Origin: a bacterium
GTDB lineage: Bacteria; Vulcanimicrobiota; Vulcanimicrobiia; Vulcanimicrobiales; Vulcanimicrobiaceae
Length of the DNA: 53,808 nucleotides
Reading direction: 5' to 3'
Assembly (NCBI GenBank): GCA_021778415.1
Contig: JAJYCL010000021.1
Coordinates: 1 to 53,808, forward strand
Shown here: one piece after another, positions 33,842-44,803 of the stretch
Position numbering within the stretch: position 1 is the first letter of the stretch
Layout: each line of letters starts with the position of its first letter
The notes under the pieces: generated by a model
What the model was told of the DNA's origin: nothing
Databases searched by the model: none
Seen by the model: the letters and a program-made list of their open reading frames with translations, nothing else
Translations under genes and position numbers: made by a program

Positions 33842-35008
33842 ATGAACCTGATGGAATTTCAGGGAAAAGAACTTTTTGCGCGCGTCGGCATCCCTGTGCC
33901 GCGTTCGCAACACTGCCATACGCCCGATGAAGCGGCGTCTTTTGTCGCAAAGAATCCTGGCAAATGGGTCGTTAAGGCGCAAGTGCTTATGGGTGGTCGC
34001 GGCAAAGCCGGAAAGATTAAGTTTGCAACGACGGCTGACGAAGCGCGGGCAGTAACGGCGGAGATTATGGCGACGCCGATGCCGCCGAATCGTCAGAACC
34101 CAAATGGCGAACCGATCCATTCAGTGCTCGTTGAGGAATGTCTGGAGATCGATAAGGAAGCATACTGCGCAATTACGATCGATCGCACGAGCAAAAAACC
34201 GGTCGTTATGGTTTCGCGTTTCGGCGGCATGGATATCGAAGAAGTCTCCGAGAAACATCCGGAGTCGATTGCCAAGAAGGCCATTGATACGGCAGCCGGC
34301 TTTTGGCCCTTTGCCGGTCGCGAACTCGCGTTTGCATCGGAGCTCGATGCCGGTTTTCGCAAGCAGCTACCGGCTATCGTCGGCGGCATCTATGATTTAT
34401 TTTTTCGTTACGGCGCGAAGCTCGTTGAAATCAATCCGCTCGCCCTCACTAAAGATGGGCGAGTGATCGCATCGGATGCCAAGGTCGAACTTGACGATGA
34501 CGGTCTTTACAAAAACAAAGAGTTTGCCGAATGGCAAAAAGCGCTCCCACTCGATGAAGATGAATCGCTAGCGACCGCTTCAGGTCTCGGCATTCGTAAT
34601 TTTCGTCGATTCCCGGGAACGGTTGGAACGATGGCTAACGGTGCCGGCCTTGCGATGGCGACGATGGATGCCGTTAAAAATGCCAATGGTGAAATCGCAA
34701 ACTTTCTCGACGTCGGCGGCGGTGCAAATGCCGAACGCGTTCGGAAGTGTTACGAGTTGGTGGTCAATCACACAAATGCAAAAGTATTTTTTGTGAACAT
34801 CTTTGGTGGGATCACCCGTGGCGACGAAGTTGCCAAGGGCATCGTGGAAGCGTTGAACACGACAACGTCGCGAAAGATCCCGTTAGTCATTCGCTTGACG
34901 GGAACGAACGAAGAAGAAGGTCGTCGCATTCTTACGCAAGCCGGGATGACAACGGTTGCAACGATGGATGAGGGCGCAGCGCGCGCCGTCGAATTGGCGA
35001 AAGCATAA
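33842..35008 (+). CDS. sucC: Succinyl-CoA synthetase (ADP-forming) beta subunit
   Basis: A 388-residue ATP-grasp beta subunit of the TCA-cycle enzyme. [20 protein letters not shown] is the usual start. [14 protein letters not shown], the metal and nucleotide residues in [25 protein letters not shown], and [14 protein letters not shown] with [14 protein letters not shown] in the C-terminal domain are all present. GGAG lies about 10 bases before the ATG. sucD follows after 14 bp. The enzyme makes ATP or GTP from succinyl-CoA in the cytoplasm. Confidence 0.95.
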
Positions 35009-39000: not shown

Positions 39001-40045
39001 CTTCCAAAAAGGCGACCCATCGCGTAACGGTCTTTCGACCCAACTGTCCTATACCTACACGCACGCTCGCATCAAGTACAACAACTTGTCGAACGGCACG
39101 AACGGGGTCGATGCTATTAATAGCTATATCATCTCGTTCAACCAACTCACGTCGTTCTGTAAGACGAACCCGACCGACGCACGTTGCGGTAACATTACCT
39201 CAGCTGCAGCGGCCAACATCGCTCCATGCTATTTGGGCGGTTCTTCGGGTGGTCTCAATGGTACGAATACGCCGGATACCTGCGCGGTAGCCGCAGACAT
39301 CACCAACCCCTACTACAACACCCCGGTGCAAAGTCTGCTCGATCGCAACGCATATTATCCGGTCTATGCAAACAACCCACCATCGACTGCTCCTGACGGA
39401 GGTCTATCAACGGCCTTCGGCCCGAGCCAGTTCGCCGGTTTCCTTAACTACCACCGTAACAAGTTCACCGTTGCGCTGAACGTTCAGCTCAATCAGGGTT
39501 CGCGTTATGGCTCGCCGCTTTCAGTTCTCGGTGTAGATCCGCGCGTTTGCGGCGGGAACCAAGCTGCAAGTGGGGCAGTTGGAGCTGGTTCTGCGTATGC
39601 GCAAGCCGCTGATTATCAAACATGCAGCGCTTCACCGTTTACGTCGAATGGTTCTCTCGCGATTCCGGATCCGAACATCAAGGCATTTGATACAGTCGGC
39701 CAGTATCGCAACCCATGGCAGATCAACGGAACCCTTCAGTTTGGCTATTTGGTCAACCAGAAGGTAAAAGCTACGCTGGTCTTGGCAAACATCTTCAACC
39801 GTTGCTTCGGTGGATCTTCGACCCCGTGGTCAAGCGCCTATAAACCCGGATCAGTGGTTTGCGGATATAGTGGAAATGGCTCGTATATCGGCTCTACGCC
39901 GGGTGCGGGGTATTTCTATGGGGCGAACGGAGCGGATGCCGCCAATGGCACCGCCGGATATCCGAACGTCTTCAATTACCAATATGCTCCAGTGAGTGGA
40001 GCGCTCCCATTCCAGGCGTATCTCCAGGTCAACGTCAAGCTCTAG
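36083..40045 (+). CDS. TonB-dependent receptor with carboxypeptidase-regulatory-like N-terminal domain
   Basis: A 1320-residue outer-membrane protein. A signal peptide covers residues 1-29 (cleavage near WALAG). A beta-sandwich carboxypeptidase-regulatory-like domain spans about 33-115 (GTVKNAKGAPIAGAKVTV, ATTDASGNFNFISLAP). A plug domain of about 130 residues follows (VFYVRGSAYSQVGYEYDGVPVNRAF, GGFINQVIQIG). The rest is an aromatic- and Asn-rich beta-barrel (for example YRYTTNQLVSVLL) ending NVKL rather than with the usual aromatic residue. This Oar/SusC-like layout is used for uptake of large or scarce substrates through TonB/ExbBD, which are not in the window. It is monocistronic, flanked by terminators. 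Confidence 0.88.
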   Translation: MKSIRSLRKVSVALLLLVAFLFQGTWALAGTTGGLSGTVKNAKGAPIAGAKVTVTSPSQQATATTDASGNFNFISLAPDTYTVVVEKSPYQPVTENGITVFADQSYTVGVIMRDLKTIAVLRTSAGTLVKSGTTASVYSINAATQQIEQGAAGGYNLTSAYSAIYSQPGVNSSIGNYGFGQVFYVRGSAYSQVGYEYDGVPVNRAFDNYAASSAANLGNSEVQVYTGSSPAGNSSATLGGFINQVIQIGTYPGFASLTGTIGAPGFRHDLTAEAGGATPNRLFSYYVGVQGTNQTFRTGNNQDFGNLNPDGSNQYGLFTSAFNPTANLLTNFATQGPWATCGATGPPTGAAAFGGIPTCNYYAPFAQTGVLSGGSTITDRENIVNLHFAIPHKKDGGRDDVQLLYNTFGYLSSYNDSVASGLGGLAGLNSAYKGYGGTGGYVSVFYPLFTGQPFNPNYPGYNSQYPDMCAYMYLFSAFGLNSCATSGPSVVPYADSQTLTSGAVFGGPASGASVGNYLFPSSPTNRTANYGISPTLGDGIWNDGSIIKLQYQKNIGSSAYLRVLGYTFYSDWLHNAPAGLSGGLFNLPYPIGYDNPAPDYELSTHTRGFQLQYANQINDKNLVQFTGNYTTATVLRNNNEFWAQPSVVSSYLGTNGNCYDYTTGALSSCTLSGSQGSYQNLQPGTAPAGSPAALAGATWQITRPGLYGPINTVRPQFSNFSLTDEFRPNSKLDLNLGLRYENYKYNMQNMNTPEFNFWFNQFANAYCYDPDTGAPYTTKPSPKSPPSAAGAAAIPNLVAGQNAGMCYQSSTSTAPLLNGAGHQYLHPNGVGGNLLFTANGPSSITKALWSPRVSGTYTFNRDTVIRFGFGRYTQPTETAFEQYSNASGYGAAKFDFTHFWSLGFTTPVHDNPVQTSNNYDFSLEKHLKGTDITLKLTPFYRYTTNQLVSVLLGPNFVSGVNAGTQKTTGIEFAFQKGDPSRNGLSTQLSYTYTHARIKYNNLSNGTNGVDAINSYIISFNQLTSFCKTNPTDARCGNITSAAAANIAPCYLGGSSGGLNGTNTPDTCAVAADITNPYYNTPVQSLLDRNAYYPVYANNPPSTAPDGGLSTAFGPSQFAGFLNYHRNKFTVALNVQLNQGSRYGSPLSVLGVDPRVCGGNQAASGAVGAGSAYAQAADYQTCSASPFTSNGSLAIPDPNIKAFDTVGQYRNPWQINGTLQFGYLVNQKVKATLVLANIFNRCFGGSSTPWSSAYKPGSVVCGYSGNGSYIGSTPGAGYFYGANGADAANGTAGYPNVFNYQYAPVSGALPFQAYLQVNVKL

Positions 40046-40406: not shown

Positions 40407-40685
40407 TTACTCCGGGATTCGAAGGTGCTCACCCGGCTGGAGCGTGGAGCCCGCGAGATGATTGACTGTACTGATCACATCGATGGTTTCTTGAATGTTG
40501 CCGCCATTGGCATGAGCTGAGGCGATGGACCACAACGTATCTCCCGGCCGAACAGTGACCGACGCATAATGCGTGGCCGTAGCAGCGTGGAGGTGACCAT
40601 TTGAGAGCATCGGTAGGGTAACCGTGAGGCTCAGGCTGACCAGCGCGATCAGCGGCATGAGGGTCACTCGTTTGCGCGTCCGCAT
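40407..40685 (-). CDS. Small LysM membrane/secreted protein, YneA-like SOS division-inhibitor candidate
   Basis: A 92-residue protein with an N-terminal positive end and one hydrophobic segment (about 7-27), then a single LysM peptidoglycan-binding domain (about 42-90: VTVRPGDTLWSIASAHANGG, LQPGEHLRIPE). I place the start at the ATG at 40685 because GGAG lies 8 bases upstream; the open frame extends to 40757 through the control region. The gene is divergent from lexA with three LexA-type boxes between, the same arrangement, size and domain content as yneA beside lexA in Bacillus and similar LysM proteins beside lexA in Actinobacteria. YneA blocks septation during DNA damage. That role here is inference. 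Confidence 0.8.
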   Translation of the reverse strand: MRTRKRVTLMPLIALVSLSLTVTLPMLSNGHLHAATATHYASVTVRPGDTLWSIASAHANGGNIQETIDVISTVNHLAGSTLQPGEHLRIPE

Positions 40686-40714
40686 CGTTCTTTCTCCTTC
40701 CCCGTATGTGGGGG

Positions 40715-40728
40715 CGAACGGGTGTTTG
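40715..40728 (+). promoter_or_regulatory. LexA/SOS box 1
   Basis: CGAACGGGTGTTTG, of form CGAAC-N4-GTTTG, one mismatch from the Bacillus-type SOS consensus CGAAC-N4-GTTCG. It lies in the untranslated leader of the LysM gene, 30 bp before its ATG. Confidence 0.65.
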
Positions 40729-40754
40729 CACACAACCTTGCCCATATTTTGGGC

Positions 40755-40768
40755 CAAACAGCCGTTCG
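40755..40768 (-). promoter_or_regulatory. LexA/SOS box 2, at the LysM transcription start
   Basis: On the minus strand CGAACGGCTGTTTG, again CGAAC-N4-GTTTG. It starts 8 bases downstream of the predicted -10 element of the LysM promoter, where LexA would block transcription. Confidence 0.7.
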
Positions 40769-40776
40769 ACCCCTAG

Positions 40777-40807
40777 ATTCTACCACAGACCGCGGTGCGG
40801 CTGTCAA
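40777..40807 (-). promoter_or_regulatory. Putative promoter of the LysM gene
   Basis: Minus-strand TTGACA (40807-40802) and TAGAAT (40782-40777) with a long 19-bp spacer. The consensus -35 and near-consensus -10 suggest a sigma-70 promoter kept silent by LexA at the adjoining boxes. No equally clear lexA promoter was found on the plus strand. Confidence 0.5.
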
Positions 40808-40814
40808 GATCTTG

Positions 40815-40828
40815 CGAACATATGTTTG
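40815..40828 (+). promoter_or_regulatory. LexA/SOS box 3, lexA-proximal
   Basis: CGAACATATGTTTG, centred on ATAT as in many Bacillus SOS boxes and nearly palindromic over 16 bp. It lies between the LysM and lexA genes and is placed for lexA autoregulation. Confidence 0.8.
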
Positions 40829-40909
40829 CCTTTTTGTTGCGTCTATGTTAGCGTACGGGTAGTGAGTGCCACCTGGGTGGCCTTAAGATGCACGTCGAGA
40901 AGGATGACT

Positions 40910-41542
40910 ATGAGCGAAAAGGCACCGACGGACCGGCAGTTTGCAATCCTCGAAGTCATTCGCAGCTTCACGCTGGAGCATGGCTACCCGCCATCCGTTC
41001 GCGAGATCGGAGAGCTCGTCGGCCTCTCCTCGTCTTCAACGATTCACGCCCATTTAAAGACGCTGGAACGTCGTGGCTATCTCTCGCGGGATCCGTCCAA
41101 GCCGAGAGCCATGCGCAGCGATTTGCCCGGCTCACGGCCACGAGACGCCGCTCCGCGGCACCCTGAGAGTCTCGCATTGCCCATCATCGGACGAGTCGCC
41201 GCGGGCACGCCGATCACCGCCCAAGAAAATATCGACGGCGAATTTGTTCTCGGGGCATCCTTTATTCCACGCTCGAACGGCGCCTTTGTGCTCAAAGTAC
41301 AGGGCGATTCAATGATCGATGCGGCGATACTCGACGGCGATCTGATCATTGTTCAGCCGCAAAAAGTCGCGAACAACGGAGAAATCGTTGTGGCCATGCT
41401 CGATGGCGAAGCCACCGTCAAGCGCTACTATAAAGAAGCGAATCGCGTTCGCTTGCAGCCGGAGAATCCGGCAATGGAGCCAATCTACGCCACCGATGTC
41501 GAACTCGTCGGGCGCGTGGAAGCCGTCGTCCGTAAGCTCTAA
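40910..41542 (+). CDS. lexA: LexA repressor of the SOS response
   Basis: A 210-residue LexA. The N-terminal winged helix recognises SOS boxes (YPPSVREIGELVGLSSSSTIHAHLKTLERRGYL). The autocleavage bond is Ala98-Gly99 in RVAAGTPI. The catalytic pair is Ser134 (QGDSMID) and Lys171 (ATVKRYY). DNA damage activates RecA, which stimulates self-cleavage. AGAAGG precedes the start; an ATG six bases earlier (40904) is also possible. The 38-residue linker is longer than in E. coli. Upstream boxes match the Bacillus type, so the DNA-binding helix should be of that specificity. Confidence 0.93.
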   Translation: MSEKAPTDRQFAILEVIRSFTLEHGYPPSVREIGELVGLSSSSTIHAHLKTLERRGYLSRDPSKPRAMRSDLPGSRPRDAAPRHPESLALPIIGRVAAGTPITAQENIDGEFVLGASFIPRSNGAFVLKVQGDSMIDAAILDGDLIIVQPQKVANNGEIVVAMLDGEATVKRYYKEANRVRLQPENPAMEPIYATDVELVGRVEAVVRKL

Positions 41543-44318: not shown

Positions 44319-44803
44319 CCCTTCGAGACGCGATGCTTCGCATCGCTCCTCAGGGTGACATAGCTCCTGTCATGCTGAGGAGCGCACGGAGTGCGCGTCT
44401 CGAAGCATCCTTACGAGAAAGCACGCGTAGCGTGCGACGGTGACATCCGCCAGTCGAGGGCCCTTCGAGATGCGAGGCTTTGCATCGCTCCTCAGGGTGA
44501 CAAGGAAGTGGAGCGCACGGAGCATCCTGTCATGCTGAGGAGCGCACGGAGTGCGCGTCTCGAAGCATCCTTACGACGAAGCACGCGTAGCGTGCGACGA
44601 TGACATCCGCCAGTCGAGGGCCCTTCGAGATGCGATGCTTTGCATCGCTCCTCAGGGCGACATAGCTCCTGTCATGCTGAGGAGCGCACGGAGTGCGCGT
44701 CTCGAAGCATCCTTACGACGAAGCACGCGTAGCGTGCGACGGTGACATCCGCCAGTCGAGGGCCCTTCGGGATGCGATGCTTTGCATCGCTCCTCAGGGT
44801 GAC
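44319..44803. repeat. Tandem array of REP-like palindromes (locus 2)
   Basis: The 516-bp gap between the PilZ gene and the next minus-strand gene is filled by repeats. A direct palindrome (44319-44359) precedes three tandem units starting at 44366, 44526 and 44668 (periods 160 and 142; the last unit is about 136 bp). Each unit has a reverse palindrome (CTGAGGAGCGCACGGAGTG...), a short hairpin (GCACGCGTAGCGTGC), a shared spacer, and a direct palindrome ending CTCCTCAGGGTGAC. The units differ by a few bases. Open frames across them are by-products of the repeat. Confidence 0.9.

Follow-up and report, generated by a model that had tools for sequence, protein, structure and literature searches.

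A promoter unit with LexA boxes between lexA and a divergent YneA-like LysM gene: a candidate SOS division checkpoint in a class of diderm bacteria

Does a diderm bacterium halt its division after DNA damage with a YneA-type protein, a kind of SOS division inhibitor described in Gram-positive bacteria (PMC6851548)? The question is raised by a short LysM gene that diverges from lexA in a member of the Vulcanimicrobiaceae, within the 53,808-nucleotide stretch of DNA analyzed here and referred to as the window (contig JAJYCL010000021.1, assembly GCA_021778415.1). Our findings suggest that the intergenic region is an SOS operator-promoter unit driving a YneA-like division brake, a reading that, taken as a whole, we hold with good confidence.

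The divergent gene pair and its operators

The LysM gene occupies positions 40407 to 40685 on the reverse strand (ATG at 40685, stop at 40407) and encodes 92 amino acids with a Pfam LysM domain (9.4e-11). On the forward strand, lexA extends from 40910 to 41542 and encodes 210 amino acids comprising a winged helix-turn-helix and an S24 peptidase domain (PF01726, PF00717). With 216 bits against an NCBIfam cut-off of 111 for TIGR00498, this LexA is a full family member, and it carries the sequence VAAG where Ala-Gly cleavage is expected. Pfam and NCBIfam thus confirm both genes named in the first-pass annotation, and the LysM protein has one hydrophobic helix. Just past the lexA operon neighborhood, the window contains a tandem array (44365-44803) of about three near-identical units of 142-160 bp with a 96-97% match, in which the open reading frames look spurious.

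Three exact CGAAC-N4-GTTTG boxes separate the two genes, as first annotated: box 1 (CGAACGGGTGTTTG, 40715 to 40728, forward strand) in the LysM gene leader, 29 nt 5' of the ATG; box 2 (CGAACGGCTGTTTG, 40755 to 40768, reverse strand); and box 3 (CGAACATATGTTTG, 40815 to 40828, forward strand). The LysM gene promoter lies between boxes 2 and 3 on the reverse strand (40777 to 40807) and consists of TTGACA (40802-40807), a 19-nt spacer, and TAGAAT (40777-40782). A standard promoter scan, allowing at most 18 nt between hexamers, gave no match because of this 19-nt spacer. Box 2 starts 8 nt past the -10 element and covers the expected transcription start, in agreement with the earlier placement of one box over the LysM start, while box 3 lies 7 nt upstream of the LysM -35 element and overlaps the -35 region of lexA, which accords with the proposal of a box ahead of that gene. 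The probable -10 element of lexA, assigned by alignment, is TATGTT (40844 to 40849, forward strand), and many relatives have TATGGTA.

Across the whole window, exact boxes of this form number four, compared with 0.19 expected from shuffles, and three of them fall within a 114-bp part of the LysM/lexA intergenic region. The fourth, at 34321, is inside an open reading frame (33842-35008) that we take to be sucC, and its presence there is therefore probably due to chance.

The first-pass annotation had proposed looking for the LysM-lexA pair in related genomes, and both the pair and its boxes proved to be conserved across the class. At least two boxes are present in every one of the 66 class loci with a divergent LysM gene that were examined, some of which represent the same genome twice. 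By alignment, a LysM promoter of the form TTGACN-17/18/19-TANNNT was found in 52/52 class genomes, and in all of these the LysM-side box starts 6-11 nt past the -10 element (exactly 8 nt in 42). The second box, which overlaps the -35 region of lexA with the lexA -10 element about 15 nt further on, ends 6-9 nt 5' of the LysM -35 element in 50 of the 52 genomes; the exceptions are L022, where the distance is 16 nt, and L103, which has none at that distance. It is boxes 2 and 3 that are conserved class-wide. Box 1, the third box, lies 40-41 bp nearer the LysM gene and is restricted to some members of the own family; judged by eye, it looks like a subclade-specific tandem duplication of about 40 bp comprising a box and the leader motif GCACAAnATATAG. 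This motif (or its variant GCCCAAAATATGGG) follows the LysM-side box at window positions 40729-40755, is found in the same place in own-family relatives, and is doubled along with the box in three-box genomes.

The spacing of the boxes had also been interpreted as helical phasing, which we reject. With 10.5 bp to a turn, the distances of 40 and 60 bp amount to 3.8 and 5.7 turns. In relatives, the 60-bp distance between boxes 2 and 3 ranges from 57 to 63 bp, apart from two loci that have 69 and 132 bp. What sets this distance is the LysM promoter enclosed by the two operators, together with fixed gaps; it varies with the 17-19 nt promoter spacer and does not represent helical phasing.

The LysM protein and its hydrophobic segment

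The protein has a YneA-like layout, with a basic N-terminus, a hydrophobic helix at approximately residues 9-28, and a LysM domain at residues 44-91. Hydropathy, AlphaFold2, and Pfam agree on an N-terminal helix followed by one LysM domain, which is the architecture of YneA, and the gene also has the position of yneA, divergent from lexA with LexA boxes. In the AlphaFold2 model (mean pLDDT 73), residues 10-27 form a helix, and the LysM fold finds its best PDB matches among LysM domains. Among NCBIfam models, YneA (NF010723) is the best for this protein, at 55.5 bits (E 4e-15) against a curated cut-off of 60 bits that it does not reach, and all 49 orthologues scanned match the same model at E < 0.001 (best 2.1e-16). 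In Bacillus subtilis, the YneA helix sits on TM7 of FtsW, peptidoglycan binding by the LysM domain is needed, and D46 and T47 of the G-D-T motif are required (PMC13396833); the window protein keeps this motif as G48-D49-T50. In two relatives, the LysM protein is additionally encoded outside the lexA locus (G003:C42:169524-169793 and G125:C32:3274-3537).

Among 50 class orthologues, mean pairwise identity is 0.52 in the hydrophobic segment, 0.48 in the LysM domain, and 0.36 in the linker, and residues L9, P11, and P25 of the segment are invariant. BamA served as a control, drawn from a partly different genome set, in which the signal peptide reached 0.21 versus 0.53 for the following domain. 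The hydrophobic segment thus matches the LysM domain in conservation, whereas the BamA signal peptide falls well short of the domain that follows it, which implies that the segment is constrained like a working helix. This pattern of conservation supports its assignment as a membrane helix and disfavors a plain signal peptide.

The alternative that survives best is that the protein is controlled by LexA and has an envelope role, in wall remodeling or protection or as a hydrolase partner, without stopping division itself. LysM domains are general peptidoglycan binders, and mycobacterial ChiZ, for which wall hydrolase activity is reported, has a seemingly dispensable LysM domain (PMC3989709). 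Moreover, homology to YneA covers only the LysM domain: a profile comparison with lexA-adjacent LysM proteins of Bacillota and one of Collinsella (E 5.5e-25) aligned this domain and not the helix, so that helix homology lends no support to a contact with FtsW. Nevertheless, the protein consists of 92 residues without a catalytic domain, YneA is the top family model for it and matches every orthologue scanned, the helix is under constraint, and the lexA-divergent position is that of known division inhibitors (PMC6851548). We consider a pure envelope role unlikely and division inhibition by this protein, which we propose by analogy with YneA, probable.

A weaker alternative is secretion of the protein to the periplasm by an ordinary signal peptide, with LexA control as a by-product of the shared intergenic region. 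In the own family, A-A is common after the hydrophobic segment, and a signal-peptidase site (LHA/LYA-A) is plausible; judging from these residues, cleavage could plausibly free the LysM protein into the periplasm there. The LysM gene's own good promoter could, in addition, serve without damage. These points are outweighed by the box over the LysM start site, which is present in every genome and separate from the lexA box, by the extra box gained beside it in a subclade, and by the conservation of the hydrophobic segment where the BamA signal peptide is not conserved, which together make this explanation highly improbable.

The same box at other genes of the genome

A genome search with the 14-bp box, which had been suggested as a check, located boxes in the promoters of imuA-imuB-dnaE2 and of an uncharacterized gene. 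Boxes of the Bacillus type (CGAAC-N4-GTTCG) are therefore found in the promoters of lexA/LysM, of imuA-imuB-dnaE2, and of the gene before rho, and the same box also precedes lexA in Bacillota loci; the description of the operator as a Gram-positive-type SOS box holds, and the box is shared with other SOS genes of the same genome. In recA loci, boxes with at most one mismatch reach a density of 0.58 per kb; single boxes elsewhere in the genome are therefore weak evidence, and we counted them as targets only given promoter context.

The imuA-imuB-dnaE2 genes form a known SOS mutagenesis cassette. In this genome, the palindrome CGAACATATGTTCG stands between the -35 element TTGACA and the -10 element TACGAT of the imuA-like gene, which is followed by imuB-like and dnaE2-like genes, and 13 of the 30 loci examined have an exact box ahead of imuA. 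Within the imuA promoter (L013:2466-2512), the LexA box sits in the 17-nt spacer. Only about 8 nt separate the -10 element from the ATG, a short distance that recurs in many relatives, so the imuA message looks leaderless. Similarly, CGAACATATGTTCG stands between TTGACA and TATGAT of a gene upstream of rho (L002:2483-2934; own genome contig C6, ~39282-39733), whose 135-aa product has no Pfam or NCBIfam match. This box is kept in 10 of 20 orthologous loci of the family, the own genome included, and the gene is probably a new LexA target.

Ahead of ftsY-recA, the own genome and 13 further loci of the 30 examined have CGAACAGGAGTTCG, and one more has CGAACATACGTTCG at the same position; this is probably an SOS box. 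The element has the form AT-CGAACAGGAGTTCG-AT before ftsY-recA-recX (L012:2545-2562), and its inner four bases are AGGA in all 14 loci, unlike other LexA boxes, perhaps owing to an added role such as ribosome binding. A glyoxalase/bleomycin-resistance-type gene (L014:2205-2564), with CGAACATGTGTTCG directly 5' of it, is a possible LexA target. The idea that the boxes arose by chance or serve another regulator, to which the density of near-boxes in recA loci lends some color, is virtually dismissed by the excess of exact boxes over the shuffled expectation, their class-wide conservation, and their recurrence in the imuA promoter and before lexA in Bacillota. We regard LexA control of the LysM gene as almost certain.

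The proposed checkpoint, its distribution, and known counterparts

From these features, we infer a checkpoint that would operate as follows. In the undamaged cell, LexA on the boxes would repress both lexA and the divergent LysM gene, covering the LysM transcription start and the lexA -35 element. DNA damage would activate RecA, LexA would cleave itself, and the LysM protein would be made. Its conserved helix would then insert it in the inner membrane, leaving the LysM domain on the periplasmic side; as in Bacillus YneA, the helix may dock on FtsW, the septal peptidoglycan polymerase, while the LysM domain holds nascent glycan, and septation would stall until repair is complete. The genome encodes a candidate target and recovery parts, namely FtsW and CtpA-type proteases; in Bacillus, YneA is cleared by CtpA and YlbL after repair (PMC6051672). 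No homologue of SulA (PF03846) was found in the own genome, and the Escherichia coli control was positive.

When 149 genomes of the phylum were searched, 101 had a match to the LysM protein; every one of them belongs to one of three families within a single class, and the other families searched yielded none. Likewise, no LysM gene lies ahead of the lexA-like genes in other families (L122-L124, with only ~530 bp of upstream sequence in L122). The earlier proposal that this diderm phylum carries the checkpoint therefore stands for the gene pair, the boxes, and the YneA-like protein, narrows from the phylum to a single class, and for the division block draws on homology. The diderm nature of the host agrees with the Gram-negative envelope documented in a cultured relative, Vulcanimicrobium alpinum WC8-2, whose cells possess an outer membrane and take the form of rods or filaments reaching 92 µm in length (PMC9758169), and with a BamA-like gene in the own genome, which scores under the strict model cut-off and is in keeping with a diderm cell. 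This cultured strain appears to carry the LysM-lexA trait, which makes the proposal testable; its apparent locus places lexA at about 2,840,356-2,840,967 on the reverse strand and the LysM gene at about 2,841,205-2,841,468 on the forward strand.

The closest named LexA relatives belong to Candidatus Eremiobacterota genomes (NCBI phylum Vulcanimicrobiota). In the LexA tree, the class is recovered as a clade of its own (100/99), linked only weakly to Collinsella (81/83); it is not nested in Bacillota, which leaves a recent lexA transfer from that phylum unsupported, and as a separate clade it is compatible with either old inheritance or old transfer. The arrangement of lexA with a LysM protein gene also occurs in Bacillus, Paenibacillus, and Collinsella loci, which upholds the likening of the divergent position to that in Bacillus. 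One speculative reading, which we rate as rather doubtful, is that Terrabacteria share the divergent lexA-yneA unit by ancient inheritance and that it works in both monoderms and diderms; as its SOS checkpoint, this diderm class would then use a LysM brake that targets FtsW from the periplasm, instead of a SulA-type FtsZ inhibitor.

YneA, ChiZ, SosA, and DivS of Gram-positive bacteria are already known (PMC6851548, PMC3989709), and the class protein is a new, diderm member. Our literature search found no paper linking Eremiobacter- with lexA. A case from a Gram-negative phylum that spans a whole class and is resolved at the promoter level would widen the reach of the YneA-type checkpoint to include diderms.

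The nearest counterpart is YneA of Bacillus subtilis, with which the window protein shares a gene divergent from lexA, Bacillus-type LexA boxes, a short length, an N-terminal hydrophobic helix, one LysM domain including the G-D-T motif, and a genome that encodes FtsW and CtpA-type proteases. It differs from YneA in its diderm host, in a score slightly under the YneA model cut-off, in a helix that is unrelated at the profile level and has its own invariant residues, in a LysM domain that ends the protein, and in two or three operators at fixed promoter positions. ChiZ (Rv2719c) of Mycobacterium tuberculosis, likened here by description, is also a membrane LysM protein whose gene adjoins lexA and is induced by DNA damage; unlike the window protein, it is actinobacterial and has reported hydrolase activity. 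SosA of Staphylococcus aureus and DivS of Corynebacterium glutamicum are, similarly, small single-span SOS division inhibitors beside lexA (PMC6851548), but they have no LysM domain. Finally, SulA of Escherichia coli provides an SOS-induced division block in a Gram-negative cell, as proposed here, although it acts on FtsZ in the cytoplasm, in contrast to the proposed periplasmic brake.
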